47,373 bases of DNA from a virus, in the IMG/VR virus record IMGVR_UViG_3300007515_000012, positions 1-47,373 of that record; one strand, 5' to 3'. The notes beneath the pieces were generated by a model, which worked only from the letters and a program-made list of their open reading frames with translations, made no database searches and was not told where the DNA came from. Position numbers and translations under genes: made by a program. Below are positions 10,732 through 39,910 of the stretch, in pieces. Within the stretch, counting starts at the first letter, position 1, and each line of letters starts with the position of its first letter.

Positions 10732-10846
10732 AGACTATACCAAGTGTTGGAATTGTGACGGATACATAGGAAAGAATATAACTACACGAGATGACTTTGA
10801 AAATGAATGTCCTCTATGTTTTGCTACACCTCTAATCGACGAGTAA
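10700..10846 (+). CDS. Zinc-knuckle microprotein (48 aa), last early gene
   Basis: ATG 10700 follows AGGA (in GACAGGAATT) and lies inside the end of the previous gene. The 48-residue product has CWNC near residue 16 and CPLC near residue 37, separated by a short charged linker, so it is a two-knuckle zinc ribbon. Its stop lies 15 nt inside the convergent metallophosphoesterase gene on the opposite strand. It is the final gene of the plus-strand block. Confidence 0.6.
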   Translation: MTQEHQTGRAKDYTKCWNCDGYIGKNITTRDDFENECPLCFATPLIDE

Positions 10847-22442: not shown

Positions 22443-23490
22443 CGACAACACCACCTTTTCTGGAAGGACCAGCTCTTTCAGGTACTGATTCAGGTGTCAT
22501 TTCTTTCAGTTTGTCTGATACACTATCTTCCATAAGCACACTCCATAACCAACTTCTTATACCAACAGGATCAGACTTAAGCAACTTCACATCATATTCA
22601 AGACCATCACTTGCCATACTGCCTAATTCTTTAATACCATCCCATAATTTTATACCAAACCTACGAGCATTTCTTTCAGCCCACTCCGGTCCGTACGGAT
22701 AATCAAACATAATAGAATTACCAGCAGGCAAATTAGCACGACGTAAACTATTAGCCAGCTTAGTTTCTCCCTTACCTTCAAGATTCCTTATCCATTCTTC
22801 AGCAAATTGAGGTTCTACCCTCCCCACAACAGGACGCACATGACCCTTACTACTATCTATAAAAGCCTCAGCACTCCTACCAATACGAGCATGTAAACCT
22901 AAATTATATTTATCTTTAATTTCCTCTACAGTCATATCGCCTACATTAGACGGATCTAAAACATTATCTAAATCAACAGTCTCAGGATTCACACGCCCCT
23001 GCTCATATCTCTGATAACGCTCACCAGCATTCCTACCTTCTTGACTGGCAGTCGGAAGAATAATATTCCCTTCTTCCGACTCCCAGTTATTACTTGTCCC
23101 TCCATACGCATACTCATTAAACGTGTTCATTGTTTTATATCCGTCGAAATGCTTCCAATTAGGAGTTGTTCTAGGTTCGCTATACGAATGGTGCATAGCT
23201 ACAGCAAATGCCGCTTTAGAATTAAGAACTGGATCATACAAATCTTCTACAGAATCAATTCCGGGAATATTCTCTATCGCCCATTGCTTATTAACTCCTG
23301 AAATCTGCCATAAACCATACGCTCCACCACTATCATTATCAGTCCACGTATTAGGATTGCCGTTTGATTCAGCTAAAGCGATACCAGTAGCAGTCACAGC
23401 TTCTTCAAAAGAAAACCCTGCATCCATAGCAAGCTGTAAAATTTCGTCAGAGTGGAGATTACCTTCTATCGGTGTATATGTTTCACTCAT
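22435..23490 (-). CDS. Virion protein with lysozyme-like SLT domain (351 aa)
   Basis: Residues about 15-115 are a lysozyme-like/transglycosylase domain: ALAESNGNPNTW with probable catalytic E41, GAYGLWQISGVNKQW at about 57-70, then DLYDPVLNSKAAFAVAM and a W/F-rich stretch. This matches the SLT-type domains by which ejection proteins of podoviruses bore through peptidoglycan during DNA entry (compare T7 gp16). The rest is helical and charged with a Pro/Lys-rich C-terminus. It has no signal peptide, as expected for a virion component. The position among ejection-type genes supports an infection role; the endolysin at 12085 handles release. Confidence 0.85.
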   Translation of the reverse strand: MSETYTPIEGNLHSDEILQLAMDAGFSFEEAVTATGIALAESNGNPNTWTDNDSGGAYGLWQISGVNKQWAIENIPGIDSVEDLYDPVLNSKAAFAVAMHHSYSEPRTTPNWKHFDGYKTMNTFNEYAYGGTSNNWESEEGNIILPTASQEGRNAGERYQRYEQGRVNPETVDLDNVLDPSNVGDMTVEEIKDKYNLGLHARIGRSAEAFIDSSKGHVRPVVGRVEPQFAEEWIRNLEGKGETKLANSLRRANLPAGNSIMFDYPYGPEWAERNARRFGIKLWDGIKELGSMASDGLEYDVKLLKSDPVGIRSWLWSVLMEDSVSDKLKEMTPESVPERAGPSRKGGVVDE

Positions 23491-26078
23491 AATGCTTTGC
23501 CACCCTTATCACGCACAGGCATACTAACTCTAGGCATCGTAGTACCCCAAAGAACTGCGTTAGCTGAACTGATACCGCGAGAACTATAATCTTGCAGAAG
23601 ATCCAATCTGCCTTCTAAGGTCGTCATCAATTCGTCATAATCCTCTGTGCCAGCTGAACGTGCCGCTGACAAGCCTGTGTCTGCTCTCTGGAAAATGTCA
23701 TCAGCGCTGAAACCATTATTTCTTGAGTGTTCAAAACCTATAGTATTTGCGTATCTAGCCAACCCTGAACGGATCTGATCCCTTGTAGCAGTTGTAATAT
23801 CACCTTTCATTCTTTTACCCTGTGCGTCAAGACCACCATCAAGCATCATTAAGAAATTTGATATAGCCACATCTTTCCCGATTGAACCAGAACGGCCTTC
23901 CATAAGGTCAGCCGCGTGTTGTTCTCTTTCTTTATCTGTTAAAGCACCGACCTTATTGGCATAGTTCATAAAATCTGAATTGTTATGCCCGAACCGTATA
24001 TTGCTACCCCAATCAGAATCATCGTTATAAAAAGATTTTAGAATCTCTTCAGCCATCGCAACCTCATCAGGATTACCGCCCATACCCCAAGCTATGTTTC
24101 TTTCCTCAGCGGTCATATCACTCAACACTTGAGCTATGTTCTTGTTTATTTCTTCTTCAGGCATGTTCATAATAGGAACCAGCCTCTTAGCAAATTTTGC
24201 TTGAGCATAATCCGCGAACCTATTAGACGCATCTACCCTGAACTGTCCTTCTACATCCATGTCAGATTCAGCCATCCTTTGGATAAGCCCTTCGTTCTGC
24301 ATCTCTTTCCAAAGTTTTTTAACATCAGGATCTATACCCAAGCGTCGGGCTTCATCAACATTTTGAACAATATCCCATTGCACTGATTGGAATGCTTTTA
24401 TTGTCTGATCGTCAACATGACCCCATCTATCAGGAGCAGGTAACTGACCTATAGAGTCATCCATGTAACCCATCGCATACATCGTTTGCTGGAATGACGC
24501 TATTACAGAAGAACCAGTTGAACCACCTTCGTTAGTCCGATGGAACAAATCTTTAAGATAAGAAGCCGCGTGTACTGGTCCGACTTTAACCCCATACTCT
24601 CCTGAGAAAAGATCCTCAAGCGAGGTTACTTGCCCAAAACTGGAAGTGTCATACGCTTCATCAAAGCCAGTAATCATACCGCCTTCATTATCCGTAATCA
24701 TATAGGGGTTCGCTCTTGTGTGTTCCGTAATGTATCTTTCAATCACTTCATCTCTAGCACCTGAAAGAACCTTGTTTGTTATCTCCTTGCCGAATTCTTT
24801 CTCCATGTACCCAATAATGTTTTGTGATTGGGTTTGCGAATGTGGACCTGCTGGTTCCATGCCCAAATAATCCATAGATTGCACTGGGTAGCCACTTAAA
24901 ATATCGTCCCACATTGCTTCTTCATCATTACTCAACATTGATATGTCAGCTAAAACCTCTATATCCATATCTGAACTATTGATAAAATCGTCAAACCTTC
25001 GGTGTGCTTCATCAAGTAACTGTTCATGCAATCCGGGGATGTTATGCCACTCCTCTCGCATATAATTGCCCAAGGTAATTCGACCATCACCAGCCGTCAC
25101 GTTTACAACATTTAAGTTGTCCTGATCGTTAGCTAGATATTGTTCCAACGTGTTGAAATCTTGTGGCGTTGCACCCATTAGATGAGGCTGTTCTAATATG
25201 ACACGCATAAACTTGTCGTTAGCAGAATTTACAGTGTGACCTTCCCAAGCTAGTTTTTTAATAATCTCTTGGCTTTCAGGCGTAGGGCCAAAATCCCCTA
25301 AACCATCTCCCATTTCATAAGTAGGCGAATCAAAGCCACCTAATTCATCGTCGTCATCTCTCATCACATCACTTCCGGGTAATCCGGGTGTCATTGTGTT
25401 AGCGATACCGTATTGTAAAGCCGCTAATCCTGTGAGTGCAGTTCCTCTTTTTGCCAGTATTTGTCCTGAAGGACTTCTTGCCGCTTCTAACATTCCACCA
25501 AGAGGTGTATTGAATTTTGAAAGAACACCCATATTAACACCTGTATTAACATCCCATTTAGGACTTGGATGACCGGGACCTGTTGGTCGAAGGCTTTTTG
25601 TTTGTCTTATTTCCCAAGCCGACTGTCCTTCTCTGCCTTTACCAGCGGTAGTCCGCGCACGATCACCAACTGTGCTGAATCGCGAATATGGACCTCCCTG
25701 TTTGGACACACGATTTGGAGGCGCGCTTCTTAATGGTTTAGCACCTTGCGAAGTATTAGTTAAAATCTTTCTTGGTAAAATCCCCTGCTTGCCTGCTTTT
25801 CTGGCTGGGATCAGTTTAGATCCAAGTTTCTTAAATAATTTAAATTTACCCAATCCGGGTATTGGCGCTAATGTAAAAGCCATCTCAGCCATAAGACGAC
25901 CATAAGATATTTCCTTTGCATCAGGGTCACCTAGCTGATCTTGTACTGCTTCAAGTAAAGCAGGATCAAGATTCTCTATGTATTCAAGAGTCTCTTCTTC
26001 AGACATATCAGAGAAATCCATGACATCGCCAGTAATAGCCTGAAGAATCATCTGTACTTCTTCAATCCATTCGTTCAT
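23487..26078 (-). CDS. Large internal virion protein with PG-binding-like segment (863 aa)
   Basis: The protein begins with an acidic helical region, followed by a hydrophobic stretch (MAEMAFTLAPIPGLGKFKLF) and a basic Pro/Arg/Gly-rich region at about 100-220 that may be flexible or membrane-interacting. Around residues 519-570 lies a peptidoglycan-binding-like repeat (VIASFQQTMYAMGYMDDSIG, then VDDQTIKAFQSVQWD) with the 'LQ..L...GY.......G..D..T..A...F' rhythm of PG_binding_1. The remainder is long, charged and helical. It overlaps the giant gene by 4 nt. It probably forms part of the ejection apparatus with the SLT and giant proteins. Virion location inferred. Confidence 0.7.
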   Translation of the reverse strand: MNEWIEEVQMILQAITGDVMDFSDMSEEETLEYIENLDPALLEAVQDQLGDPDAKEISYGRLMAEMAFTLAPIPGLGKFKLFKKLGSKLIPARKAGKQGILPRKILTNTSQGAKPLRSAPPNRVSKQGGPYSRFSTVGDRARTTAGKGREGQSAWEIRQTKSLRPTGPGHPSPKWDVNTGVNMGVLSKFNTPLGGMLEAARSPSGQILAKRGTALTGLAALQYGIANTMTPGLPGSDVMRDDDDELGGFDSPTYEMGDGLGDFGPTPESQEIIKKLAWEGHTVNSANDKFMRVILEQPHLMGATPQDFNTLEQYLANDQDNLNVVNVTAGDGRITLGNYMREEWHNIPGLHEQLLDEAHRRFDDFINSSDMDIEVLADISMLSNDEEAMWDDILSGYPVQSMDYLGMEPAGPHSQTQSQNIIGYMEKEFGKEITNKVLSGARDEVIERYITEHTRANPYMITDNEGGMITGFDEAYDTSSFGQVTSLEDLFSGEYGVKVGPVHAASYLKDLFHRTNEGGSTGSSVIASFQQTMYAMGYMDDSIGQLPAPDRWGHVDDQTIKAFQSVQWDIVQNVDEARRLGIDPDVKKLWKEMQNEGLIQRMAESDMDVEGQFRVDASNRFADYAQAKFAKRLVPIMNMPEEEINKNIAQVLSDMTAEERNIAWGMGGNPDEVAMAEEILKSFYNDDSDWGSNIRFGHNNSDFMNYANKVGALTDKEREQHAADLMEGRSGSIGKDVAISNFLMMLDGGLDAQGKRMKGDITTATRDQIRSGLARYANTIGFEHSRNNGFSADDIFQRADTGLSAARSAGTEDYDELMTTLEGRLDLLQDYSSRGISSANAVLWGTTMPRVSMPVRDKGGKAL

Positions 26079-29000
26079 ACTTTTATCAATCCATTCTCAA
26101 ATTTTGCAACAAAATTCTCTCCCAACAATGGAAGCACTAAACTATAATATATTTCATTTAGCCACGGCTTACCACGAACAAAGTCACGGAGAGTCAAATA
26201 AACCATTACTTTAACATTGTTTCTTAATTCGGTAGCTTCACCAGTTGTTTGCCCTTTTAGCTTAAATAAGTCCTTTTCCATTTGAGTAGCTATCCCCATA
26301 ACTAGAAGCAAATCTGCTTTATATGGCCCTTCAGGTACTTTGTCAGGGTTATTAACAAGCAATTCTATTTCTTTCATAGATGCTTCACGCTTATCCCTTG
26401 ATCTACCACCTTGATACTCTTTAGCAAACACTGGGTTACTGGTCATAAATTGTAAATTATCTGCATCCCATTGCCTATCAAGCGCCGAAGTGTCCTGCTT
26501 ATTAGCTAATAATGCGTACTTCTTTTCAAGATAATCTGTTTTCATTTTCTGATATTGAGGCATCGCAGACTTGTAATACACCTCATTTAAATACTCTACA
26601 GGTGTCTGCAATTCTAAAAGACCATGAGCTACCAGTCTTGCTTTAGCGTCTGCTTCATAATCGTCGTCGTCAGAATCAAAACCACGATCCATGAAGAAAG
26701 CCGCAGTATTAGGGAAGTTATTAATAAACGGATTATTGTCAACAATCCAATCGTTAGCTTGTTCTGTCGTTTCCAAAACAGCTACCGTTCCTTTTTTATG
26801 TGTACCTACCATGAATGGTGTGTGTACAAACGGATCGAACTCGCCTTCTTCAGCGATAATCTTCTCCATCCACATTCCGTAGGCTTCCTCCCAAGGAACA
26901 CCATTGCCGACTAGATCCCATAAATCTTGGTTTCTTTCAAACGCTTCATTGTTCATAAGGTCATGTAAACGTGCCGTAGCAGGACCAGCCCACCATGACA
27001 TTGTTTGTAGAAGCGAATACTGTCTACCCATTTGCGCTACTTTGTCCATGAATCTTTCCATGAAAACTTCAGGGTTGGGTTGAGATGCTATCTCTTCAGG
27101 TGTTGGGAGCTGACCATGTAACCCTAGATATTTAATGACTTCCATTTGAGCTTTGATTTTGCCTTTAGATTCAAAACCAAATCCATCCATTATTGCAGAA
27201 ACAGGTCGTGCAATAACTTGTGGAACTACCGCACTCCAAACCACTTCTCCACGATTCTCAGGGGTGAATCTACCACCTGAAAGGTTGTTCTCAAAAGTCT
27301 TTCTGATAGTCGAATCAATGTTAGCGACTAGATTTATAGGGATTGAAAGCAAAGGACCAAAGCCCATCTGACCCATTCTGTCTAAATCATAACCCGGAAT
27401 TACATGAAGGCTTGAAGCTAGATTTGGTTTAGCTACACTACCTAAGTTCCCTCCAAAGACCCTGTTCACAACAGGCATTTTGTCCGCTAGTTCCATTACA
27501 TAACCTACTGTGTCACCTGAGTAAGGGATTACAAGGATGTGATTTCCGTGTTGGTCTTTTTGAACGACACCCATATCACGTAACGCTCCTGTGAAAAGGT
27601 TCAGATTTCGTAACATTAATGGATTGTGTGCTAACCCTCGTGCGAATCTTCTAAGGAACGTGTCTTCAGCGAACCAGAATGGTACAGCTGTATTAACCAT
27701 TGTTTGGAAGTTTGATCTGATTCTATGGTCATCAATAAATGAACTTGTTAGTGTCATAGCTCTTTGAAGACCAGTATCTCTCCACAGTTCAAGTTGCCTC
27801 TCTAAACCTGCGTTGTAAGAAAAGAAATCATCTAATAGTTTTGCATCGACTTTAGTATTTGAACTCGCCATCACGTACAGTTCTTCAAGGAACTCTGTTA
27901 TTTGCGGTGATAATGACAGAGGTGCAGTTTCTTCTGTACCGTTTAATATCACATCTAAATGCTTTTCGACCCCTTTTTGACTTCTGCTTTCTATAGCGTA
28001 GAAAAGGCCAGTAACCGGATCATCCGCATCTGGTACTCGGCTTAAAGCGTTTTGCTTCACAAAATCTTCCCAGCCGTTAATAACCAACTGTTTATTATCA
28101 TCAACGCTAGATATTTTACCTAAGCGAGTATTAAGCGTTTTGAATCTGTCAGGAGCATGGAAGTATGCTTGCCTGAAACCTTCTGTTTGTTTCATGCCTT
28201 TTGTTAGATAGTCATGGAACAACGGCTCCCTGACCATCGCACCTAACATCGGGTGAACAACACCATCAAAGAACCCTCTAAAGAGTTTCAAATAGAATGC
28301 GCTTTGGTCTTCTGCTTCAGCAGGAGCGAAACCTACTAATTCTTGTGGGGCGCTATTCCACCATCCGTCACTATCAGCATTTGCTTGCATACGACCTGCG
28401 TCAACAGGAGCGTCATTGATTACTTCATCAACCCATGGATGGAAAACTTTAAGCGAACTAGTAGTACCTCCCCTTCTACTCTGGTTTGTGTAAGTATGCA
28501 AAAGGTTATCTATAACAAGTTGCCCAGTTTCCGAAATCGCATTATGAATTGTTGGACCACTAAATATTTGTTCTTCAAGATCCCATTCATCAGGTTTATA
28601 CCATGCAAGCTCTGTTGAATTATCAGGATCTATAATCGCATTAGGTCGCAACCCATCTTTGTGTCTAGCTATTATCTTTTTGCTTACTTGATATTCGCCA
28701 TTAGTTGACATCGGCACAGGTGTAAGACCCTCAAATGGACTTAAACGATGCGCTCCTATGCCAAACACCGTTTCCCCTCGTAACCCACTGTCTCCCATTT
28801 GTGCAGAAGTAACAACACCACGCCCATCAGTAGCAAAACCATAAACATGGTTCATTGTGCGTATATCACCAAACGAAGCGTTGCTTTCTGTAGAAGTTAA
28901 ACCACCACGTTCAAGATCCCAGTCAGGAGTCTGAGCATTCTTTTCTCTTTCTCTTCTGTAATATCCGGGTTTGTTAAAGAACTCATCACCGTGAAGATCT

Positions 29001-32000
29001 TTCGTTGCTATTCTTGGGAGTCCTATCTGTTCAACAGGGACACCTTTCATTTCTGCTATTGTTTCTACAACACTTTCAGCTATAGCTTTAGCAACCATTG
29101 GATCTGTGGAAGCTGTAACTAATGGGAAATGCCCTGCGTCAGCCCACTGTTCAGCTAATTTCATATAAGTAATACCGCTATTACGAGCGCCTTTTATACT
29201 CACAGCTGGGTTTAATAATTGTGAAGCAGTAACAACTCCTCCACTTTTTCTCTTAGGACCAGTTCCACCTATTTCATCTAATTTGCGTGTAAGTGTCTCT
29301 TGAAATATTTGATGGAATTTATTAGCAGCTCCCACCAATTCAGGGTCAGCTATCATTAAAGATGTCAAATCTTCTGCCACAGAGGTTGGCACCATAGGTA
29401 CAAAACCTCTAACTACGGAATCTGGTATAGCGTGAGATATGTAAGGAGCCGCTGGATCAGTAGAAATATTTGAGCGAACTGCACTTGTATGCGCCTGTTG
29501 ACCTTCTGGTGTGCTATGCGCCCCAACGTATGCTTTGTGCATAGCATCTCTCAAAGCCTCTTCTGAATAATGTAATCTGCTTACATCTTTGTATCTTCCC
29601 GGATTCCCGAATAGCCAATGCGCTATTTGAGTGCTTTGATTTGTGCGTGGAACACCATCAGTCATATTAGGTATAGGAATACCAAGCTCAGAGAAGGTAA
29701 GCATGTTAGCTTGGTTCGCTCGCGCTAATGCTTCGACATTATCTGCGGCTGTTGTAGTGTGACCGTACCTTAAGCGTGACATTTGTGTTTCCCAAATGTA
29801 AGCCATTAAAGCAAATTGGTCGGTTAATGGTGTGTCTAAAGTAATGACATCATCTATCCCACGAGTTGCCCCATAAAGATTTACTAACTCAACAAACCTT
29901 TCAGCATCACTAAGCTGGGAAGGAACTATGTTTCTTGTCGCAAGCATTGTCACAAACTCATCAGCATTAAACCAGCCAAATTGCTTCAAAGAATCAAAAG
30001 CTGTTCCGCTGAAATTACGGTTCTCATATGCTTCTTCTATGGCGCGAAGATCAATACTAAATGAATTAGGTACAGGATCCCAAGGTGCAGTACCTCTTGA
30101 TATAGACGCTAAATGCCCTTTTGTATTAGCAACATCTTCTACTGTTACACCCCTGATAGGAGATGGGAACGAAATCAACGGATGATCCGTAGCACCTTGC
30201 ACACTGCCCTTAAGTTCTTCAAGCAACTCAGGGAATTTACTTGCCCAAAATGTATCTTTAACAGGGTGTGTAATCTGCCCTGACGCTAATAGTTCTTCTC
30301 TGAATGCAGGAGATTGATCGAATTTAGACTGAAGGATCTCTCTCATCAATTCTGTATTCGTATCAGTATCAGCTGTTAATTTGCGTCCTTTTGCTTTAGC
30401 CGATTTACCTGTAAGGTTTTCAAATCCGGGTACGTAATCTCCTGTTTTCCAAGCCTGATACGCACCTTCTGCTGTTGAAAATGCTACACCTCTGAAAACA
30501 AATTCTTCTTGATGGAAGTTGCTTAAGACAGTGTTTAAACCTTTATTGTAATGAACTTCTGTTACAACTTGTGCTTGTCTTCTCGCATCAGGACCAGCAA
30601 GTTCTTTTAATTTAGACATTATATACTCGTATGTTTTCGGCGCTCTTGAAGGCAACTGAGCAAGTCCTGTTCCTATACCATCTGTGGAATAAACTACATT
30701 TGCGCCTTCAGGTATTCTTGCGAACGCTTCATCAATCTTTGCTTTAGTAAACTTTTCAAAATCCCTATCTGAAAAAAACGAAGTTTCCTTATTGTTAGGC
30801 TCATGTTTAGTAGGGATCCCATAAGCATTAGGTTCATCTCGTATAACAGCTTGGCCAGCTTTACCTTTGCCAGCAATATTATCTCCAAAAAGATACACAG
30901 TGTCAGGATTAGCTCTTAATAATTCAGGAGTGATACGAGCGGTTTGTGTAACATTTCTACCTGTAACCATTTTCTCTGCATCGTCTACCCTCGCTAAACG
31001 TGCCTGCGAAATCATCGCAGGATTACTACGCCTGAAAGTAATATTGATACGCGGTCCAAGCCTTTCATGCGACAAACCGCGAGTAACTCGATGCTCCCAA
31101 TTTTCTTGAGTGCCTTCACGCATCAAGAAAATGTCACCGTCCTCTAACGGCATATCTATATGATGTTCACTTCTATCAGTTTTATAACCGTATTCTTTAC
31201 CATCTTCTCGCCATCTTGGTCTGAATTGGAAGTTTCTTGTTTCACCAAAATTAACCGACGCAATAATCTCTTCAGGACTACCATCGGGAAGTCTGTCGTA
31301 ATGCCAACCAAGGTCAACTGAACCGGAATCGTACCTTTGGATAATAGCTATATCGAATTTGTAACCAGTTTCTTCTTCAACCCTTTTAAGTATTCTTGCG
31401 ATCGCAGGTGGCCAACCAGCTTGAGTATCAGATTCTACCCAATTACGCCCCATTGGCCTTTCGTCGCTTAACTTAGCTCCGGGTTTTGATTTACCATCAT
31501 CAATAAGATTGAATCTTTTACCTGTGTAACCATATGATTCTCCGACTTCACCAACAACAATTATTTTTGGACCTGTTGCCTTGTTCTGTTTATAATGAGC
31601 ATCCCACCAAAAATCTGATAACTCTTCTAAAAGTTCGTCTATAGTAAACTCGCCTCTTAAAGCCGCTGGGTAAGCATCAATGTTCGCTCCACCTTCTTCT
31701 AACTGACGGTGGTTAGCTGATTTCTGTGGTTGAGCTTTAAGAGCTATCCCAGTATCAGGGTCAACCATTTCAAAGAGTATCTGTGTGTGTCCTTCGCCAT
31801 AAGGTCCACCTGTGTACCCATATACTTTCGCTGGTCTGCTTGCCGGAACTGGTATCCCCATTTTAGAGAAAAGTTCTAAAGCCTCATCGTCAAGCTCACG
31901 CCATTCTTTTGCAGTTGCTTTTCCGCTTTTAAAGTGTTTAACCATGTCTTCATGGCTCATACGTTGTTCTTTATATAACTGTGCAGGACTTGGTGTCCAA

Positions 32001-35000
32001 TTTTCGGCGGCGGCTTTAGGGCTGTAACCTTCAGGCAACGCCCATTCTTCAGGAGTTAAAGTATCTGTTTTACGAACTTCCGTGACACGAACATAAATAG
32101 GTTCTGACTGTACTCCATGTTTTGTTTTAGTGAACTTTAAATAGTCACCAACTTTCACACCTTCCACTTGAATGTCTTTGCGTGTAGTCGCTGTGCGTTG
32201 CCCATCTAAAATCGCTGTAAAAGTATCATCCGATGTTATATGAGCGGCTTTAGGCAAAGCACCTCTTTGACCGTAATCAAAATTCATTGGAAAATTTTGT
32301 GCCATTCCGGGTTCAAAAACGGAAGCGCCAGTGAAATCGCGCACTTGTCTACCATAAGTTCTTGCGGTACGTGCAGGAAGCGCCGCTCCTAAATCACTCT
32401 CTTTAATAGCCAACGCTTGTACTGTTTCTTCTCTGAACACTTCAAGATAACGAGGCGCTCTGATAACACCATCCACAGGTGGCATCAAAATATCGTGCCA
32501 TAAATGACGAACCCTATAAGGAATGTATGAAAGAACACTATTCACTACCTCTTGCCAAGTGTGGCTACCTCTTCGGGCTTCATCAAGATTGGCTTCTAAT
32601 ATACGCTTCACTCTTGGAGGCAACTGATCCAAAAAGTAAAGTAATGACTGCATCGGAGTTTTAGGTTCAATACCCGGAATAGCAGGTATGTCCTCTGCTT
32701 TAGTGGCTGTTGTACTATCGTAAACAGTTAAACGAGTCACACCATTTTCTGTAACCTCATCGTAATCTCTAGATGCTCTTCGTGAAGCGTCACCTTTAGC
32801 TTTGTTGTAAGCAGATACTTCTGCAAGTTCTTCAGCACCAGCGATTTCCGGTTTACCAAAGTTAGCTTGCGTGTCTATTTTCACCCCTGCTGACAATGAC
32901 TGATTCATAGCATCAGCGGTTCCACCCTCCCATTTTAATCCAGCTTGTACTTCAGCTGGGTTGGTTTGTGGACCGATGTACTCGAATCGTAACTCTACTG
33001 CTCTTGGTCCACCATCTGGAAAATTAGGATCCCAATTTTTAATGTTGTCATCTAGTACAGAACCTTTCTTAACCCAGTTCTTCGGTTTTTTCATTTCCTG
33101 CATGAAGCGAGGGCTTATAAGCATGTTGTCATTTTTAAGCAGTTGAGCGATTTCTTCACCCTGACGTATCGCACCACCTGTTATACGAACTAAAACAGTT
33201 TGGTCGCCTGATTTAATTGCGATTACTTGATTTATAAGGACTTTTGGATGTAAATGAAACCCCGGAGGCATGTTCGACGTTCCACCCACCATTTTTTTGA
33301 AAGCGGCATATGGAAGATACGCAACTTTTAAAGGATTTTCCGCATCTCTACCAAGACCCTTAATTTTACCTAATATAAAACTACGTTTACCAATATCTAA
33401 AGTTTTCTGAGCTTCTTGAGTTTCAAACCCTTTACCACTATGGAACGCCCAAGTCTTATCAGCTAGTCCTCTCTCCCCTCCCTCAATCGGACGGCCTTCA
33501 AGCATTCTCTTATTCCTAATAGGACCAGCTTTAGCTTTAGCAGTTGTCCAAGATTCAGCTCCTTCATCTGGAATGTAATATTGCTCTACGTTCAAACCTA
33601 ACCTGTTAGCCACCTGTTCTGCGTACTCATCCACGCCTCTAGCGCCACCCACACGAACAGTAGATCCCGGAGGTAACTGGGCTAAAGAATCATCTATCGC
33701 TTTTTTGATTCGTGCTTCGTCCTGTTCAGACACAGCGCGAACCATTTTGCCTGTTGCTTTATCCTTTTTCCAAAACCTTTGCCCAGTAATCATCACAGTT
33801 ATAGGCTCGGCTTCTTTAGCCGCCTGCAACGCTTGTTCTGTTATTTCAGCTCCCTCTGCTGGGATAATCCCACCCTTAGAAGCAGGCACATGCCTTGCAG
33901 GTATCTCCGCTCTGCCTACATGAAACTCTCTCTGTCCTTGAGTCGGCAACTGTGCGATCATCTCATTGATAAGCGGAGCTAATTTCGCTTCGTCTTCAGG
34001 ATTCACAAAATGATTCATTACGTGCATCGCCGCCTCAACACCGACATCTTCCCCATGCATCTCCGCAGATTGAGCCAAAGCCAAAATATATTCAGGGGAC
34101 TGTCCGGGGTTATTCTGAACTACTCTCAACTGGGTTGTTGAATAATCAACAGGAAGTTTTACCAACTGTGAAAGTGTCTGCCCGAAACCTGCATCACGCA
34201 TAGCGGTATCTAAAGAATTCTTAGAGAAATTAAGATAAGTGTCATGTGTATTCAATATGTCTTTAGCTACAGCATCCATCATCGTTGGATTACTTAAAGC
34301 ATGTTGTATATCAGCTATTCTCCTGTCAGCATCAGCATCTATCTTTCTTAACCAGTTCGCCATTAACTGTTGTTTACTAGGTATACCCATGCCACTTGCA
34401 GTATCACCTATCCTTCTGCTGACATAATTACTCAACTTGTGTGCATTAGCTTGTAACCATCGAGCCATCCTCGGTATGGTATCCATGTCACGTATTAGCC
34501 TTGCTCGTTCAAATTCAAACGCCGCTAATTGAGTCGCTTCATCTTTAAAGCCCCAAGCAATACCGCTTGTACCACCTTCTGGCCCTTTAATAGCATTAGC
34601 CAATGCTTTACGTGTAATAGCGTAATCGCCCACACCAGCAATCTCATTAACAGAACGAATAAGCCTACCGAATGGTTTACCTATTAGAAGACGGTGATCT
34701 GTGTCAGCTAACTCGTCAATATTTTTGACCATCTTGCGACCATACTCATCCCAAACAATGACCTTGCCTGCCGCTGTTCTAGCCATTTTACTCTTAACGT
34801 AATTTCCCGGACCTTCACGAAGCATCCATGAGAACAGCTCTTCTCCACCGTTACGAGCAACGTAACCTAATCGTAATAGAACTGCTGGTCGCCAAATCCT
34901 TCCCATCCATTTATCTATCCAAGGAATAGGTGTCGCCCAGCCGAATCTCTTATACATGTTTATGTATTTGGCTACAGCCGCTAACTCTCTATAGTTAGGG

Positions 35001-37723
35001 ATTACGTTCATTCGTGACATTTGCGCTAGGTTCATGTCGCTGACAAAAATACCTCTAGGTGCGCTCATGCCGAATACGCTTACACCGTCTTGTCTTAGAA
35101 CATCATAATGATGGCTTCCGTGACGTATGAACCTATCAACGAATTGTGTTACGTCGTCACCTGCGTGTAGCAAGATACCTGATCGTCCAACAAAATCTAA
35201 AAGAAATTCGCTTGATACAATCCAACGTTCGGCTTCGTTACCTGTAATGAATTTACGTATATAACTGTTGATTTGCGCTCTTGGCATGTGGGCTAAAGAA
35301 CCCATTTTTACAAGAGCTTTAAATTCTGAAATAGATGTCAGGGCATCAACACGATCCAAGTGACCGGCTTTAGGCACATATGTGATTAAAGATCTTGCAA
35401 ACTTCGCAGGATAATAGGCCATTGATGTGGCTGTCGCTAAACTAAATACTTTTAACTTTTCAGCTAATCCTACTTCCGCATTGAAACTTCCTTGAGGCGG
35501 TATGTTATCTGTATAATAATTTCTTGCGGCTCTCCACCAGCCTTTAGGAAGAACGTCACCTTTTTGAACGTACCTAATTTTTCCTGTCTCATCAATTACG
35601 CGACCGTCACCTTTGTAATAATTCAAAAGGTCACTAACTTCACCATCATCTATAAGTCGTCTAAAGATTTCGCCTTCATCCAATAAATATTTATGACGAT
35701 CTGTGATTTTAGTTACATCTTCTTTTGTGAAACCCATTATCGTTTCTGCCATTGAAGCTCGTTCATCTAATTGAGATGGACGAATCTTTAGCAATGTACC
35801 TAATTGTTCACCAGTAATTTCTTTTGATAACGTGAGAACTCCGTTATCAATATCTTCCATTAACAAGGCAACTGCGGTGTAATCTTGCTTTTGTAAAAAC
35901 TCACCAGATAATCTGGCTACACCAGCAGTTATCTCAGTATGACTGTTCTTACCGAAATCAACAGTCTGATCCATTAGAGTTTTAACTCGTTGCCAAGATG
36001 CGCCTCTGAAAGTTAAACGAGGAATAAATATTGCATCAGGGTCAACGCCACCCATCTTTGATGATAACGCTCTAGCACCTAAATCGTCTTTAAGGAAATT
36101 CCAAAAGCCATCATATGTTGACAAGTCTTGTGGTTTTACTCTTTGCCCAGTAGCTGTTATCCAGCCGTCATCCAATCGAACTTTCAAGTTGTATTCAATC
36201 ATGTGATGAAGCCCTTGTTCCATTCCCGGAATTAATCTAGTGAACTCTTCAAGCAAAGCATCTGCATCAACGCCTGCTAGATCAGGGTGCCTCTTAAGCA
36301 GTTCTTCTTCTACTTTCGCGTAAGTTGCATCTACACCCATCTCATCGCGAATAGCTATCCGAGCGTCTTCTGTTCTATTAAGTTTGTCGAAAGTTTCATT
36401 AACTTTCTCAATAAACCTGTTCCTAGCATTAGCGTTCATTCTCACTAAAGGATTCAATAACCCAACCGCACGTAAACCTTTATGGCTTCTTGACCATTCC
36501 TTCATCAATTCATCGTGAGTGTTTGATAGCTTCGCCATTTCTGATCGAGGTAGTTTCCCACCATGCGCTCGAACTATTCTCGAATACTGTTCAGCTAAAT
36601 CTATTGTCTTCCAAGCGTCAGCATTACGTATACCCAACTTCGTTAGTTTCGCCGCAGAAAACGCTGGTCCAAGTAGCCATGTTGTCGGATCGAGTATAAT
36701 CCCTGTAGCTAAACTTCCAGTCGTACCCACTACTTTGCCCCACTTGCTATCAGGTGCGGCATCAGGTAGGAAAGGTACATACTTGTTGTACATTCTTATA
36801 GAACCGTTGAACGTGTCTAATTTGTTTGATTGTAAAATAGCTAACGCTTCTTGACTGTCTTCTCTTGCTAAAGATTCATACCAATCCGAATGTAAATTAA
36901 TTGCGTCTTCTATTGGTCTGCCACGCGCTTCCATTTCATCTGCGAAATATTCAGCAACCGCATCATTGCCTTGAGCTATATACATTCTTAATAGCTTTGT
37001 TCTATCAGGCCCCACCAATTCTAAAGCATCAGCAATAGTGTCTTTACTGTAGGAATCATTTTCTAAACGTGTGTTGTTCCATGCTTCTCTCCATTTAGGA
37101 GGTTTAAACATAGAGCTAGAACCAAGTTCTTCTAAGTAAAGCAGACTTCTACCGAAGCGTTGCCCAGCTCTCCAACTCTTTTCAATACCCTCCCAAAGAG
37201 TTGAACCTACAAAACCTAAACCAGCGCCAACAGCTTTGACTGGAGCTAACGCCGCTTTTGGTAAAGCAAGAGGAGTACCCCAACTTCTATCATCCAACCA
37301 GTTATCAAAAGGATTTAAAGGAATGTCCCAAGTTAAAGCTCGTTGCCACCAAGGGCGTTCATCTTGTTTTTTATCAGGCAACTCGTAACCAGCACTTAAC
37401 ATCATTTGTTGAGTTGTTGGTGGAAGATTAGCAAATTCAGAAGGCTGGAATGTTTTAGGAATCTTTTTAAAATTCTCTACCTGTTGCCTTAAATAGATTT
37501 GATCGTTAGCCGTGTAAAGAGTCTCAAGCTGTTTATCTATAGATATGTTGCTACTAGCTAAATCAACTAGCCGAGTAGAAAGTTCCGGTCCTTGAATAAA
37601 CCTACCGGCACCACTTCGCATAAGCGTAGCGTAATTCTCTCCATACATAATAGAGTTGAGATTGTCTTCTCGCCCCCAGTTTCGGTTACTTGATGTAACT
37701 GGGTTGAATCTAGAATTGACCAT
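26075..37723 (-). CDS. Giant polyvalent virion protein (3882 aa) with SLOG, ASCH-like, AlkB-like, DUF7831-like and NADAR domains
   Basis: A single intact frame fills a quarter of the window. About residues 1305-1410: SLOG/DUF2493 (TVMITGQRF, GGARGVDEYAEQVANRLGL, PIRNKRML). About 1815-1910: ASCH-like (TFTAILDGQRTATTRKD, GDYLKF). About 2050-2230: AlkB-like Fe(II)/2-oxoglutarate oxygenase, with HxD in GWHYDRLP near 2140, distal His in WEHRV near 2208 and 2OG-binding Arg in RINITFRR near 2224. About 2258-2375: DUF7831-like (TVYLFGDNIAGKGKAGQAV, YGIPTK). About 2385-2508: NADAR (VLSNFHQEEFVFRG, AEGAYQAWKTGDY, LQSKF, DTFWASKFPEL). Flanking regions are long and helical, with hydrophobic patches near 150-180, like ejection proteins. 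NADAR domains remove ADP-ribose from guanine in DNA; AlkB repairs alkylated bases; SLOG and ASCH bind nucleotide or RNA-type ligands. Polyvalent injected phage proteins are an established theme, and this fits. Delivery with DNA is inferred. Confidence 0.85.
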   Translation of the reverse strand: MVNSRFNPVTSSNRNWGREDNLNSIMYGENYATLMRSGAGRFIQGPELSTRLVDLASSNISIDKQLETLYTANDQIYLRQQVENFKKIPKTFQPSEFANLPPTTQQMMLSAGYELPDKKQDERPWWQRALTWDIPLNPFDNWLDDRSWGTPLALPKAALAPVKAVGAGLGFVGSTLWEGIEKSWRAGQRFGRSLLYLEELGSSSMFKPPKWREAWNNTRLENDSYSKDTIADALELVGPDRTKLLRMYIAQGNDAVAEYFADEMEARGRPIEDAINLHSDWYESLAREDSQEALAILQSNKLDTFNGSIRMYNKYVPFLPDAAPDSKWGKVVGTTGSLATGIILDPTTWLLGPAFSAAKLTKLGIRNADAWKTIDLAEQYSRIVRAHGGKLPRSEMAKLSNTHDELMKEWSRSHKGLRAVGLLNPLVRMNANARNRFIEKVNETFDKLNRTEDARIAIRDEMGVDATYAKVEEELLKRHPDLAGVDADALLEEFTRLIPGMEQGLHHMIEYNLKVRLDDGWITATGQRVKPQDLSTYDGFWNFLKDDLGARALSSKMGGVDPDAIFIPRLTFRGASWQRVKTLMDQTVDFGKNSHTEITAGVARLSGEFLQKQDYTAVALLMEDIDNGVLTLSKEITGEQLGTLLKIRPSQLDERASMAETIMGFTKEDVTKITDRHKYLLDEGEIFRRLIDDGEVSDLLNYYKGDGRVIDETGKIRYVQKGDVLPKGWWRAARNYYTDNIPPQGSFNAEVGLAEKLKVFSLATATSMAYYPAKFARSLITYVPKAGHLDRVDALTSISEFKALVKMGSLAHMPRAQINSYIRKFITGNEAERWIVSSEFLLDFVGRSGILLHAGDDVTQFVDRFIRHGSHHYDVLRQDGVSVFGMSAPRGIFVSDMNLAQMSRMNVIPNYRELAAVAKYINMYKRFGWATPIPWIDKWMGRIWRPAVLLRLGYVARNGGEELFSWMLREGPGNYVKSKMARTAAGKVIVWDEYGRKMVKNIDELADTDHRLLIGKPFGRLIRSVNEIAGVGDYAITRKALANAIKGPEGGTSGIAWGFKDEATQLAAFEFERARLIRDMDTIPRMARWLQANAHKLSNYVSRRIGDTASGMGIPSKQQLMANWLRKIDADADRRIADIQHALSNPTMMDAVAKDILNTHDTYLNFSKNSLDTAMRDAGFGQTLSQLVKLPVDYSTTQLRVVQNNPGQSPEYILALAQSAEMHGEDVGVEAAMHVMNHFVNPEDEAKLAPLINEMIAQLPTQGQREFHVGRAEIPARHVPASKGGIIPAEGAEITEQALQAAKEAEPITVMITGQRFWKKDKATGKMVRAVSEQDEARIKKAIDDSLAQLPPGSTVRVGGARGVDEYAEQVANRLGLNVEQYYIPDEGAESWTTAKAKAGPIRNKRMLEGRPIEGGERGLADKTWAFHSGKGFETQEAQKTLDIGKRSFILGKIKGLGRDAENPLKVAYLPYAAFKKMVGGTSNMPPGFHLHPKVLINQVIAIKSGDQTVLVRITGGAIRQGEEIAQLLKNDNMLISPRFMQEMKKPKNWVKKGSVLDDNIKNWDPNFPDGGPRAVELRFEYIGPQTNPAEVQAGLKWEGGTADAMNQSLSAGVKIDTQANFGKPEIAGAEELAEVSAYNKAKGDASRRASRDYDEVTENGVTRLTVYDSTTATKAEDIPAIPGIEPKTPMQSLLYFLDQLPPRVKRILEANLDEARRGSHTWQEVVNSVLSYIPYRVRHLWHDILMPPVDGVIRAPRYLEVFREETVQALAIKESDLGAALPARTARTYGRQVRDFTGASVFEPGMAQNFPMNFDYGQRGALPKAAHITSDDTFTAILDGQRTATTRKDIQVEGVKVGDYLKFTKTKHGVQSEPIYVRVTEVRKTDTLTPEEWALPEGYSPKAAAENWTPSPAQLYKEQRMSHEDMVKHFKSGKATAKEWRELDDEALELFSKMGIPVPASRPAKVYGYTGGPYGEGHTQILFEMVDPDTGIALKAQPQKSANHRQLEEGGANIDAYPAALRGEFTIDELLEELSDFWWDAHYKQNKATGPKIIVVGEVGESYGYTGKRFNLIDDGKSKPGAKLSDERPMGRNWVESDTQAGWPPAIARILKRVEEETGYKFDIAIIQRYDSGSVDLGWHYDRLPDGSPEEIIASVNFGETRNFQFRPRWREDGKEYGYKTDRSEHHIDMPLEDGDIFLMREGTQENWEHRVTRGLSHERLGPRINITFRRSNPAMISQARLARVDDAEKMVTGRNVTQTARITPELLRANPDTVYLFGDNIAGKGKAGQAVIRDEPNAYGIPTKHEPNNKETSFFSDRDFEKFTKAKIDEAFARIPEGANVVYSTDGIGTGLAQLPSRAPKTYEYIMSKLKELAGPDARRQAQVVTEVHYNKGLNTVLSNFHQEEFVFRGVAFSTAEGAYQAWKTGDYVPGFENLTGKSAKAKGRKLTADTDTNTELMREILQSKFDQSPAFREELLASGQITHPVKDTFWASKFPELLEELKGSVQGATDHPLISFPSPIRGVTVEDVANTKGHLASISRGTAPWDPVPNSFSIDLRAIEEAYENRNFSGTAFDSLKQFGWFNADEFVTMLATRNIVPSQLSDAERFVELVNLYGATRGIDDVITLDTPLTDQFALMAYIWETQMSRLRYGHTTTAADNVEALARANQANMLTFSELGIPIPNMTDGVPRTNQSTQIAHWLFGNPGRYKDVSRLHYSEEALRDAMHKAYVGAHSTPEGQQAHTSAVRSNISTDPAAPYISHAIPDSVVRGFVPMVPTSVAEDLTSLMIADPELVGAANKFHQIFQETLTRKLDEIGGTGPKRKSGGVVTASQLLNPAVSIKGARNSGITYMKLAEQWADAGHFPLVTASTDPMVAKAIAESVVETIAEMKGVPVEQIGLPRIATKDLHGDEFFNKPGYYRREREKNAQTPDWDLERGGLTSTESNASFGDIRTMNHVYGFATDGRGVVTSAQMGDSGLRGETVFGIGAHRLSPFEGLTPVPMSTNGEYQVSKKIIARHKDGLRPNAIIDPDNSTELAWYKPDEWDLEEQIFSGPTIHNAISETGQLVIDNLLHTYTNQSRRGGTTSSLKVFHPWVDEVINDAPVDAGRMQANADSDGWWNSAPQELVGFAPAEAEDQSAFYLKLFRGFFDGVVHPMLGAMVREPLFHDYLTKGMKQTEGFRQAYFHAPDRFKTLNTRLGKISSVDDNKQLVINGWEDFVKQNALSRVPDADDPVTGLFYAIESRSQKGVEKHLDVILNGTEETAPLSLSPQITEFLEELYVMASSNTKVDAKLLDDFFSYNAGLERQLELWRDTGLQRAMTLTSSFIDDHRIRSNFQTMVNTAVPFWFAEDTFLRRFARGLAHNPLMLRNLNLFTGALRDMGVVQKDQHGNHILVIPYSGDTVGYVMELADKMPVVNRVFGGNLGSVAKPNLASSLHVIPGYDLDRMGQMGFGPLLSIPINLVANIDSTIRKTFENNLSGGRFTPENRGEVVWSAVVPQVIARPVSAIMDGFGFESKGKIKAQMEVIKYLGLHGQLPTPEEIASQPNPEVFMERFMDKVAQMGRQYSLLQTMSWWAGPATARLHDLMNNEAFERNQDLWDLVGNGVPWEEAYGMWMEKIIAEEGEFDPFVHTPFMVGTHKKGTVAVLETTEQANDWIVDNNPFINNFPNTAAFFMDRGFDSDDDDYEADAKARLVAHGLLELQTPVEYLNEVYYKSAMPQYQKMKTDYLEKKYALLANKQDTSALDRQWDADNLQFMTSNPVFAKEYQGGRSRDKREASMKEIELLVNNPDKVPEGPYKADLLLVMGIATQMEKDLFKLKGQTTGEATELRNNVKVMVYLTLRDFVRGKPWLNEIYYSLVLPLLGENFVAKFENGLIKV

Positions 37724-38093
37724 TACGTAAATGGTCTTTCAAATCTTCTGCCGCCATTCTGACAGCAGGATCAGGAACATGCTCCGCTAAATCACTTAAA
37801 AAAGCCGCGGCTCTCGTCTTATTGCTAATAATAAATTCTTGAGGACGAGAACGTATGTTCGCACCTTGAGCTGTTAATGGTGTGACCGTATTAGGGAAAC
37901 TCGATGCCACTTCCACAGGGTTCGCAGGAAGGTTTTGTTCAGGAACCGCACCTGTAGCACCAACAGTTGGCTCGGACATATCCGGCATACCTATGTCTTT
38001 AATCAACCCTTCATTAGTTTGAACTTCACCATAATCAGCGCCAGCCTCCATCGGTGTTGTTTTAACAGGGAGATTCTTTTTAGCTCTGACCAT
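37710..38093 (-). CDS. Small virion-module protein between portal and giant gene (127 aa)
   Basis: A basic N-terminus (MVRAKKNLPVKTTPMEAGAD) leads into a Pro/Gly/Asn-rich, probably disordered middle and a helical C-terminus (RAAAFLSDLAEHVPDPAVRM). It overlaps the portal by one base and the giant gene by 14 nt. No family recognised. It may be a capsid-interior or portal accessory protein; evidence is positional only. Confidence 0.55.
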   Translation of the reverse strand: MVRAKKNLPVKTTPMEAGADYGEVQTNEGLIKDIGMPDMSEPTVGATGAVPEQNLPANPVEVASSFPNTVTPLTAQGANIRSRPQEFIISNKTRAAAFLSDLAEHVPDPAVRMAAEDLKDHLRNGQF

Positions 38094-39910
38094 TAGCCAG
38101 TCCTTAATGCACTAGCTAACTCTTGTACTGCGCCCGGAGAGAATCCTTCTGTGGGTTGTTCAGCTGGGGCTTGTCCTAATCCTTGTGCGCCAGCCGCCAT
38201 CCCCATCGCTTCTTCAGGTGCCATCATTTGACCCTCTTCAGGTGGAGGAGCTACCGCCGCTTGCTCTTCACGAATTTCACGGTCAGCTTGTTCGATGGCT
38301 TCAAAAATATCTAGCCCTTTCTTGCGATGCTTTTCTATTTTAGAAACATAAACAACTGGCAGTTGCCCTGATAATGCTTGCTGTTGTATCGCCTGCATTA
38401 CGGCTTCTTCCAAAAGTTCTTCATCTACTCTACGACCTTCAGCTTCAGCATCTTCAATAAACGGATGCTTAGTACGGAAAGTTCTTAGACTAATACCCTT
38501 CATACCAAGCAACTGACCTAATTGAATTGTCGTTCCTTGAACATCTGCGCCGGGGACTGAGTACGAAACCACATTGTCATATGTCTCAAAATGTTCGTTT
38601 GGAGTAAATTCTACTTGACCCAGATCCCCAGCGTAACCAGTGAACATAGAGAATTTTTTACTACCGAAATAACCTTTATAAGAAGCGAATAGGCATTCGT
38701 TTAGATGAGGAAGATGAGCCTCCATAATCTCTTGCATTTCTTGGATACGCGGATCCAATGCCGCGCCCATAAGCGAGTCGATTCCTCTGCCTGTACGTAA
38801 CGCTCCGTAAGTTTCCCCACCAATTTGTGGGACGGTTCCTGTCGATACACGAGCATTTCTTTCCAATCTGTCGATGGCAATATTTGTACTCGGATCAGGA
38901 GTTGATCTTAATTCGCCTATTTCTTCTGCATCGAGAAGTATGTTTACTTCTCCTTCACGACCGTCTTTCCATTCACCTCCGACGATCATAGGCACCTGAC
39001 CCGATCGTCCTATTATATACCGATCAGGGAAGATAGCTTTTTCCTGTGCCATTATTTCCAATGCCATCATTTTTGACATAAGATCCACGATTCCTACAAC
39101 ATTTGATATTGAAGAAGCGATCTTATCTAAGCTCACTCGACCCGGAGTTATCACACAAGGCATACCAGCTTTATTAGGTGCGCGTGATAATTCAATCTGT
39201 GTGCTGTGTCTAGAGTAAGTATTGTTCTCAAAGAAGTGGTGGTATCTTGGCCCCATGATGCCAATGACTATGTGTTCATCATCTACCCATTCGCAAACAT
39301 CCCATAGTTCTTGTCGTGATCTTTCATCAGAATTTACAGGTCCACCATTTTCTTCTCTGGAAGCAGGGTAATGCGCTCTTAGCCAGTCCCCTGATTTACC
39401 ATAAATAAACCCACAATTCCGTGGTGGGTCTACGTCTTCATATGCTTTCGGTTCTGGATATACACCCAGAGGATCACGTATATCAATACGTGGGAGTCCT
39501 TTATTAAAATCTGGTGTTACCACTAAACAAGATGTGGCATACCCAGCTAAATGCCTATAAGCGCGGCGCATTTTAATCTTATATTTAGATGAATACCATG
39601 TCGCAGACAACGCTCTTCTGCGAATATCAGCGTATTCTCTTGACCTAATACCACGTTCTTTAGACTGGTCTATAGCTGGGCATCCGATAAAAGGCATTAC
39701 TGATGCGGCTCTTTGAGCTACAGCATCAATGTTTTCTGATATTAAAGCAGGTGTAAGAGGGGGTAGAACAGGTTCTTCATCCATAGAAGGAAGCGGTATA
39801 ACATATTCACCGTTATAACGTTCCTTTATCTCAAGCATCCGATCCAGTAAAGGACTTTGTGCGTCTTGTCGTTGTCGTATTATTGATACAATTTCATCAA
39901 ATGTATACAT
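38093..39910 (-). CDS. Portal protein (605 aa)
   Basis: The N-terminus (MYTFDEIVSIIRQRQDAQSP) and the early region LTPALISENIDAVAQRAASV with VMPFIGCP are typical of podovirus portal (head-tail connector) subunits. The body has mixed alpha/beta sequence with ISNVVGIVDLMSKMMALEIM as the long central helix and GALRTGRGIDSLMGAALDPR after it. The C-terminal 60 residues are Pro/Gln/Glu-rich and likely flexible. Twelve copies form the channel for DNA packaging. It lies directly after TerL (overlap of one base) and before the giant ejection gene, the expected order. The length is normal for podoviruses. Confidence 0.85.
   Translation of the reverse strand: MYTFDEIVSIIRQRQDAQSPLLDRMLEIKERYNGEYVIPLPSMDEEPVLPPLTPALISENIDAVAQRAASVMPFIGCPAIDQSKERGIRSREYADIRRRALSATWYSSKYKIKMRRAYRHLAGYATSCLVVTPDFNKGLPRIDIRDPLGVYPEPKAYEDVDPPRNCGFIYGKSGDWLRAHYPASREENGGPVNSDERSRQELWDVCEWVDDEHIVIGIMGPRYHHFFENNTYSRHSTQIELSRAPNKAGMPCVITPGRVSLDKIASSISNVVGIVDLMSKMMALEIMAQEKAIFPDRYIIGRSGQVPMIVGGEWKDGREGEVNILLDAEEIGELRSTPDPSTNIAIDRLERNARVSTGTVPQIGGETYGALRTGRGIDSLMGAALDPRIQEMQEIMEAHLPHLNECLFASYKGYFGSKKFSMFTGYAGDLGQVEFTPNEHFETYDNVVSYSVPGADVQGTTIQLGQLLGMKGISLRTFRTKHPFIEDAEAEGRRVDEELLEEAVMQAIQQQALSGQLPVVYVSKIEKHRKKGLDIFEAIEQADREIREEQAAVAPPPEEGQMMAPEEAMGMAAGAQGLGQAPAEQPTEGFSPGAVQELASALRTG

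Follow-up and report, generated by a model that had tools for sequence, protein, structure and literature searches.

Several described phage systems resemble the protein studied here. In phage polyvalent proteins, unrelated effector domains are joined in one long chain, and the phages that carry them belong to the portal–terminase type (Iyer et al. 2017, PMC5512222). We analysed the IMG/VR virus record IMGVR_UViG_3300007515_000012 (47,373 bases, the complete record; henceforth the window), which encodes a giant cargo-bearing protein of 3,882 amino acids (aa) with the same traits, i.e., several unrelated effector domains, a portal–terminase phage and a position near the packaging genes. By contrast with the polyvalent proteins, the giant has one cargo bay in a defined scaffold and has natural relatives without long cargo; furthermore, the main text of that study does not mention AlkB, 2-oxoglutarate (2OG), ASCH or SLOG.

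A second group comprises phage enzymes of NAD and ADP-ribose metabolism, among which NADAR and SLOG are found in phages near virion genes (PMC9503650). The same study also found SLOG fused to Macro and NADAR, meaning that the idea of fusion is itself not new. However, it describes such phage domains as typically standalone and does not mention AlkB, whereas the window fuses them with AlkB and DUF7831 in a giant encoded within the virion gene cluster. The giant's NADAR shares with the T4 gp30.3 type a glutamate and a lysine spaced seven residues apart as well as, in the region of the last strand, a histidine (PMC11125620), but it is embedded in a giant and, in five related records, interrupted by a cpYpsA domain with or without an ASCH-like domain. 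DUF7831, in turn, shares with the macrodomains of DarG and TARG1 the top ranks of a fold comparison and several pocket residues alike in type and order (PMC5179494), but it is much shorter between glutamine and threonine–lysine, has fewer strands and lacks a Pfam Macro match. N4-like virion RNA polymerases are also giant chains, and two of them with the virion RNA polymerase domain PF21867 also carry DUF7831; the window giant differs in that PF21867 has no match in the window record, which rules out its identity as a virion RNA polymerase. Finally, phage ct2KA10 and the Streptomyces phages of the Beephvirinae have homologous terminases and portals and encode a large protein at a similar location. 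The large protein of ct2KA10 (1,764 aa) is homologous to the window giant in the C-terminal module, that of Immanuel3 (gp09; 1,648 aa) has no detectable homology to it, and neither gave a blastp match to the window cargo.

A sequence-only reading of this DNA had proposed that the giant combines SLOG, ASCH-like, AlkB, DUF7831 and NADAR domains, in this order, and had called the combination unusual. The frame and the order of its domains were recovered as proposed, with two of the five domains above curated cut-offs and the ASCH-like one weak. The exact set remains unusual within the searches made, but polyvalent proteins and packaged ADP-ribose enzymes have been described (PMC5512222 and PMC9503650), and the row AlkB–DUF7831–NADAR recurs in a second giant, L247. 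The window giant is well bounded and richer than first noted, i.e., a modular cargo bay in a probable virion protein. Among the literature matches listed we recognised no paper that links AlkB and NADAR to a virion protein, nor any mention of AdfN, a phage anti-DarT factor; no paper on DUF7831 by name was found in the literature searched.

One cargo bay between two conserved modules

BLAST comparison of the giants of related records showed that two stretches are conserved (window aa 1–1255 and 2698–3882; henceforth the N and C modules) while the remainder is variable, i.e., the giant is built from two conserved modules that flank a single cargo bay. Close relatives (L002–L007) were taken from IMG/VR, and distant ones were obtained through terminase and C-module scans (best 80 of 573 confirmed terminase relatives). 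Of the 40 loci analysed, to which L006 does not belong, 37 have both modules in one frame and enter the gap count; outside it are L134 (modules in two frames) and L150 and L158 (C module only). The gap between the modules measures 91–174 aa in 23 of the 37 loci (e.g., 108 aa in L106), 403 aa in one and more than 1,000 aa in 13, four of which are the window's own clade (L119–L122); these lengths are BLAST boundaries, rough for the most distant loci, and near-identical contigs were left unmerged in the count. Duplicate records are L104 and L147, L103 and L148, L105 and L155, L106 and L144, and L181 and L246, while L119–L122 repeat contigs of L002–L005. The N-module profile reached L050 (E 8e-15) and the C-module profile reached ct2KA10 (E 5e-28). 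Four of the five shorter giants L114–L118 (all but L117) were undetected by both profiles at E 0.1, and tblastn of both modules against a phage collection gave no match at E 0.001. A chance open frame was ruled out: the frame, which is exact on the minus strand and has zero internal stops, is kept with its domains in close relatives, and the ratio of nonsynonymous to synonymous divergence (dN/dS) is below 1.

In L134 the N module (3766–8295) and the C module (8177–11821) lie in overlapping frames broken near the cargo junction, either through a sequencing error or as a split gene. The 403-aa cargo of L141 (aa 1296–1698) had no Pfam match at E 0.1 and is partly similar to window aa 1662–1751.

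We found that the cargo changes by whole domains. Specifically, among the five close relatives spanning the site, DUF7831 is present in L002, L003 and L005 and absent from L004 and L007, where AlkB and NADAR have clean edges. The cargo of L124 consists of SLOG, ASCH-like, cpYpsA and NADAR domains, with the cpYpsA SLOG domain occupying the place of the window's AlkB and DUF7831, and cpYpsA SLOG domains were detected in 2 of 7 cargo stretches in one scan and in 4 of 7 in another. The survey of domain order in related phages, which the sequence-only reading had suggested as a check, thus returned whole-domain swaps at one bay together with the recurrence of three domains in order in L247. Synonymous divergence (dS) between the window and L005 is 0.08 in DUF7831, 0.14 in AlkB and 0.20 in SLOG, compared with 0.50 in the N module and 0.46 in the C module; cargo dS is therefore below scaffold dS in this pair, which fits recent cargo exchange. 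NADAR has no lowered dS relative to the scaffold with L002 and L004. Across cargo segments dN/dS ranges from 0.14 to 0.67 (four pairs) and in the C module from 0.11 to 0.13, values with dS below 0.1 being imprecise.

Domains were also found nested within one another. A cpYpsA domain lies inside NADAR in two records (L104, identical to L147, and L151), and an ASCH-like domain together with cpYpsA lies inside NADAR in three (L103, identical to L148; L149; L157). In L246 (identical to L181) an ASCH-like domain lies inside AlkB, which is uninterrupted in the near relative L180.

Domains of the cargo and their recurrence

Curated Pfam cut-offs were passed by AlkB and DUF7831. The AlkB domain (PF13532, aa 2091–2231; E 2.9e-25, 90 bits against a cut-off of 31.2) has ALKBH3 (chain 8jnk, E 5.7e-18) and ALKBH2 as its best relatives among solved structures searched with phmmer. 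The AlkB signature is HxD...H...Rx5R, and the corresponding residues H2141-x-D2143, H2211 and R2225-x5-R2231 are intact in all five aligned sequences. Scanned as a lone stretch (aa 2397–2495), the predicted NADAR domain matched Phage_30_3 (E 9.6e-8, 32.4 bits; cut-off 36) and NADAR (E 5.3e-7, 30.5 bits; cut-off 35.1), while the lone NADAR stretch of L247 scored above the NADAR cut-off (40 bits). The window keeps E2419 and K2426, seven apart, and H2486 in the last strand region; NADAR catalytic residues and catalysis are described in PMC11543638, and the histidine of the phage gp30.3 type in PMC11125620. The active-site residues of AlkB and NADAR, whose conservation the sequence-only reading had set as a check, are thus intact in the window. 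Across relatives this holds for AlkB and in part for NADAR, whose histidine is not kept in 3 of 11 aligned sequences (L148, L149, L157), L148 also having arginine in place of lysine.

The assignments of NADAR, SLOG and ASCH are predictions from sub-threshold profile matches, motifs and relatives. For the putative SLOG domain, the whole-chain scan gave 18.6 bits and the lone stretch 23.4 bits (E 5.2e-5; curated cut-off 28.2); the motifs GGxxGVD and IRNxRM are present in the window, and the SLOG stretch of L124, though alignable with it, had no Pfam match at E 0.1. The ASCH-like call is weak: PF04266 scored 17.9 bits (E 1.5e-4 for a single record; cut-off 21.2) and, for the lone stretch, 15.6 bits (E 0.027). 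Among eight aligned stretches including the window's, ASCH matched five (E up to 1; best 0.0022) and not the other three, and single members were matched about equally by HAS-barrel (0.0032) and DUF2187 (0.0054). PHROG families were hit by the SLOG (E 2.5e-9), AlkB (8.2e-13), DUF7831 (3.7e-12) and NADAR (2.3e-9) stretches, the SLOG family being named ‘GTP-binding domain’ and those of DUF7831 and NADAR being without function. Against PDB sequences, the best E-values were 0.72 for the single NADAR sequence, 0.21 for the single SLOG sequence and 0.34 for the ASCH-like profile.

DUF7831 was matched by Pfam at aa 2261–2370 (E 1.4e-32, 112.4 bits against a cut-off of 27), and its predicted model is confident (predicted local distance difference test, pLDDT, 93.9). 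In a second structural aligner, TARG1 entries and Poa1p took ranks 1–5 and T. aquaticus DarG rank 7 (TARG1 4j5q: Z 5.7, root-mean-square deviation 3.7, 103 aligned; DarG 5m31: Z 4.3, root-mean-square deviation 3.8, 106 aligned). Within the family, all 61 sequences carry N28, Q37, T51, K52 and G97, while G95 and G99 each occur in 60 of the 61 (in window numbering the motif is N2282, Q2291, T2305, K2306, G2349, G2351 and G2353). In DarG, ADP-ribose is contacted by N8, L9, T20, N22, V31, Q34, T79, G117, G119, N120 and G121, and K80 is catalytic (PMC5179494). DUF7831 matches 7 of these 11 contacts and K80 in residue type and in order along the chain rather than by superposition. DUF7831 may therefore resemble the TARG1/DarG macrodomains, and, if it has a macro fold, it would be a much shortened one. 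At the GxGxG segment, the place of the TARG1 aspartate, DUF7831 has no acidic residue. Profiles of DUF7831 against PDB sequences hit nothing but triosephosphate and peptidyl-prolyl isomerases, with E 0.057 at best. A Pfam Macro match occurs in 6 of 22 bacterial genomes carrying DUF7831; one Macro candidate, L323, was tried as a profile bridge and rejected, matching no DarG or TARG1 entry in PDB.

To see where else these domains are found, we scanned IMG/VR with DUF7831. Among the best 80 of 200 relatives, 38 lie in frames of at least 600 aa (window clade included) and 38 in frames of at most 200 aa. Pfam scans of 22 giant stretches detected 2OG-FeII_Oxy_2 in three, cpYpsA in two, and NADAR, DUF4326 and vRNAP_dom_2 in one each. 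Of the 15 giant frames compared with the window scaffold, L246 (4,486 aa) was the sole one sharing it by profile; the other 14 (two of them cut by the stretch end) had no scaffold match at E 0.1. The same null result holds for L247 (3,258 aa), in which AlkB (1347–1478), DUF7831 (1504–1608) and NADAR (1635–1729) follow in the window's order, colinear with window aa 2193–2505, from the end of AlkB through NADAR (37% identity, E 8e-49). Outside this row, L247 is similar in its C-terminal part to a Pseudomonas phage phiR18 protein with the annotation virion structural and, in the stretch following NADAR, to a portion of the Klebsiella phage Pylas virion RNA polymerase. L250, another of the 14, aligns over window aa 2248–2483 (38%, E 1.8e-33), where phmmer found no NADAR. 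Furthermore, DUF7831 and PF21867 occur in one frame in 2 of 23 records searched. These are L259 (record G051, a 4,818-aa frame) and L260 (record G046, a 3,879-aa frame).

DUF7831 is also encoded in bacteria. The Acidobacteria loci L264, L268 and L271 have a conserved row of SLOG, single-stranded DNA-binding protein (SSB), DUF7831 and a second SSB-like gene near RNase H (the Pfam check of SSB covered L271 and its first SSB), and in L271 the row also includes a DUF4326 gene and a 552-aa gene without a Pfam match. The row has the look of a bacterial system without a name so far, or of a mobile element. In L271, DUF7831 stands beside the SLOG (YAcAr, E 1.6e-13) and DUF4326 (E 3.1e-24) genes, and 11 of 54 bacterial loci have a SLOG-cluster gene close to DUF7831 (grouped by BLAST, with Pfam identity checked in L271 only). 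With the window SLOG as query, phmmer found none of the neighbour genes at the bacterial loci at E 0.001, yet Pfam calls one of them YAcAr.

Possible roles of the cargo

The reading that we prefer, and consider about equally likely to be right or wrong, is that the giant is a virion-delivered polyvalent scaffold whose cargo reverses base ADP-ribosylation and alkylation, mainly against DarT-type modification and alkylation. We infer packaging, injection, substrates and activity as follows. The giant would be translated late in infection and its chain packaged near the portal, as its gene place suggests; the chain would then enter the cell with the DNA, and its cargo would act before phage gene expression. 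Judging by family, NADAR would be an ADP-ribosyl-guanosine hydrolase and AlkB an AlkB-type demethylase removing base alkylation; DUF7831 may be a TARG1/DarG-like ADP-ribosyl hydrolase, and the SLOG nucleotide domain and the ASCH-like domain would complete the cassette. Together they would undo modifications of nucleic acid bases and nucleotides, or clear ADP-ribose signals. The nearest support for delivery comes from the N4 virion RNA polymerase, which is injected with the DNA. As the sequence-only reading stated, the giant lies among virion-type genes, i.e., beside the portal and terminase, with a transglycosylase-domain gene following at a short distance. In vitro, guanosine ADP-ribose was hydrolysed by all the NADARs tested in one study, that of an E. 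coli phage included (PMC11125620).

A number of results weigh against this reading. In the same study, cells were rescued from DarT1 only by the NADARs of E. coli C7 and enteropathogenic E. coli (EPEC), not by the phage NADAR, and in the window NADAR, SLOG and ASCH-like all fall below curated cut-offs. Other results concern the macrodomain likeness of DUF7831. Its best Z of 5.7 is modest and below the aligner's reliable level; rows within one Z unit are tied, such that an unrelated designed hydrolase at rank 6 (Z 4.5) ties with DarG. Foldseek with the DUF7831 model gave no significant match, and the Pfam Macro profile matched 0 of 25 records at E up to 10, so that membership of the Pfam Macro family was rejected. 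The DarG contacts N8, L9, T20 and V31 are unmatched, the N120 position is mostly threonine (a loose match), the glutamine and threonine are 14 residues apart compared with 45 in DarG, and DarG has six strands, the model four (counting those of at least three residues). As for the scaffold, the predicted model of the C module is poor (pLDDT 65, predicted template modelling score 0.37). Its comparison with solved structures (Foldseek, VIA-align) returned mostly helical-repeat chains, which we did not take as kinship; its profile had no match among PDB sequences, and a search of BFVD for the C module gave three phage proteins without informative names (E up to 0.001). Immanuel3 gp09, in spite of its comparable gene position, was undetected by the N and C profiles at E 0.1, and the contrast in dS between cargo and scaffold is absent from the pair of window and L007.

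A more specific version holds that the cargo is a virion-delivered, transferable DNA-cleaning cassette in which DUF7831, as a shortened hydrolase of the DarG/TARG1 type, acts on ADP-ribosyl-thymidine and the adjoining NADAR on ADP-ribosyl-guanosine, so that both DarT classes would be answered, with AlkB acting on alkylation, and that one pool of domains serves phages whose scaffolds are unrelated, those with virion RNA polymerases among them. We regard this as possible, though on the unlikely side, its chances being lowered because the glutamine-to-threonine spacing of DUF7831 differs from that of DarG. About as tentative is the main rival proposal, derived from the study of phage NAD and ADP-ribose enzymes (PMC9503650), that the cargo targets soluble NAD-derived immune signals (cyclic ADP-ribose and relatives) rather than DNA, with SLOG, DUF7831 and NADAR degrading or binding them. 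The SLOG (YAcAr) and DUF4326 genes adjoining DUF7831 in L271 belong to families that this study places in ADP-ribose processing, and the cpYpsA SLOG domains of other cargo stretches point the same way; however, AlkB and the ASCH-like domain would then be unexplained, and the position of DUF7831 between SSB-type genes near RNase H in L264, L268 and L271 points to nucleic acid. A protective or repairing role for the domains on RNA (tRNA or mRNA) after the action of host toxins seems improbable to us. Relatives that act on RNA exist for AlkB, ASCH and ADP-ribose hydrolases alike: the ASCH superfamily is linked to RNA, and ALKBH3 acts on both RNA and DNA. Reversal of RNA ADP-ribosylation is reportedly described in PMC11833690. 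Yet among 30 neighbouring window proteins compared with PHROGs, the sole RNA-repair name is a weak RNA ligase match, found in an HNH-type protein (10035–10487; E 4.2e-6) over its HNH part.

Two further explanations concern the chain as a whole. It could be an ordinary polyvalent protein with a virion-protein scaffold and a loosely assembled, largely redundant set of cargo domains that have no common function, as might be suggested by the absence of a whole domain from two close relatives and by the 23 of 37 loci without long cargo. We consider this very unlikely given that three domains recur in order on the unrelated scaffold of L247, that catalytic residues are kept and that cargo dN/dS is within the range given above. 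Alternatively, the chain could remain unpackaged and act late, in the cytoplasm, on progeny DNA before packaging. A gene in the portal–terminase cluster fits such late expression, but the giant lies between the portal and transglycosylase-domain genes and its domains are common to virion RNA polymerase giants and L247, which is partly similar to the phiR18 virion structural protein; this explanation too strikes us as improbable. If virion delivery of a base-repairing cargo is true, the giant would offer a working model of how phages carry counter-defence, i.e., a constant scaffold for delivery whose single bay takes exchangeable contents and whose near-empty natural versions could serve as controls; it would also give reason to test the widespread unnamed family DUF7831 as an ADP-ribose hydrolase. 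The system would also make testable whether the reversal of DNA modifications is carried into the cell along with the phage genome, a question that sequence has not settled by itself, and, provided that the chain is indeed delivered by the virion, it suggests how phages load and exchange counter-defence tools.

Feature map and gene neighbourhood

The coordinates of the giant, its parts and the surrounding genes are given in Table 1. On the minus strand, head-/tail-type and 2OG-oxygenase genes are followed by the large terminase, the portal, a 127-aa gene and the giant; downstream on the same strand are an 863-aa gene, the transglycosylase-domain gene, and then the major head protein and an endolysin. 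The terminase and portal are matched at 23–25% identity by those of Abafar (Beephvirinae), a podovirus (PMC11536984). Because this terminase and portal relative is a podovirus, the window phage is probably podovirus-like.

Table 1 Features of the window (positions in nucleotides; aa, residues of the giant)
Feature	Positions	Strand	Basis or remark
Giant cargo-bearing protein, 3,882 aa	26075..37723	-	open frame
N-terminal scaffold module, aa 1–1255	33959..37723	-	kept in relatives with and without cargo
Variable middle (cargo bay), aa 1256–2697	29633..33958	-	1,442 aa in the window
Putative SLOG domain (YspA/YAcAr type), aa 1306–1415	33479..33808	-	below-cut-off profile, motif alignment
Two stretches without family, aa 1440–1800	32324..33406	-	kept in close relatives, partly in L124
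ASCH-like domain (weak), aa 1809–1910	31994..32299	-	weak profile match, below cut-off
AlkB-type 2OG-Fe(II) dioxygenase domain, aa 2075–2240	31004..31501	-	Pfam, phmmer, residues
DUF7831 domain, aa 2255–2380; possible TARG1/DarG-like macro fold	30584..30961	-	Pfam, model, residues
Predicted NADAR domain (phage gp30.3 type), aa 2386–2505	30209..30568	-	profile, residues
Linker or scaffold stretch, aa 2510–2697	29633..30196	-	matches L105 and L153–L155 just before their C module
C-terminal scaffold module, aa 2698–3882	26078..29632	-	conserved in relatives
Large terminase gene	39910..41628	-	phrog_38
Portal protein gene	38093..39910	-	phrog_104, E 1.7e-8; tblastn to annotated portals
127-aa gene between portal and giant	37710..38093	-	no family matched
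863-aa gene immediately after the giant, 4-base overlap	23487..26078	-	no family matched
Transglycosylase-domain protein	22435..23490	-	SLT_3, E 2.4e-13
Major head protein gene	16716..17909	-	phrog_1328

The two stretches at aa 1440–1800 had zero Pfam matches at E 0.1, and no domain is assigned to aa 1915–2060 either. Separate from the AlkB domain of the giant, two adjoining 2OG-Fe(II) oxygenase-like genes are encoded on the minus strand, at 43007–43675 (phrog_61 and Pfam 2OG-FeII_Oxy_3) and 43657–44307 (phrog_81).

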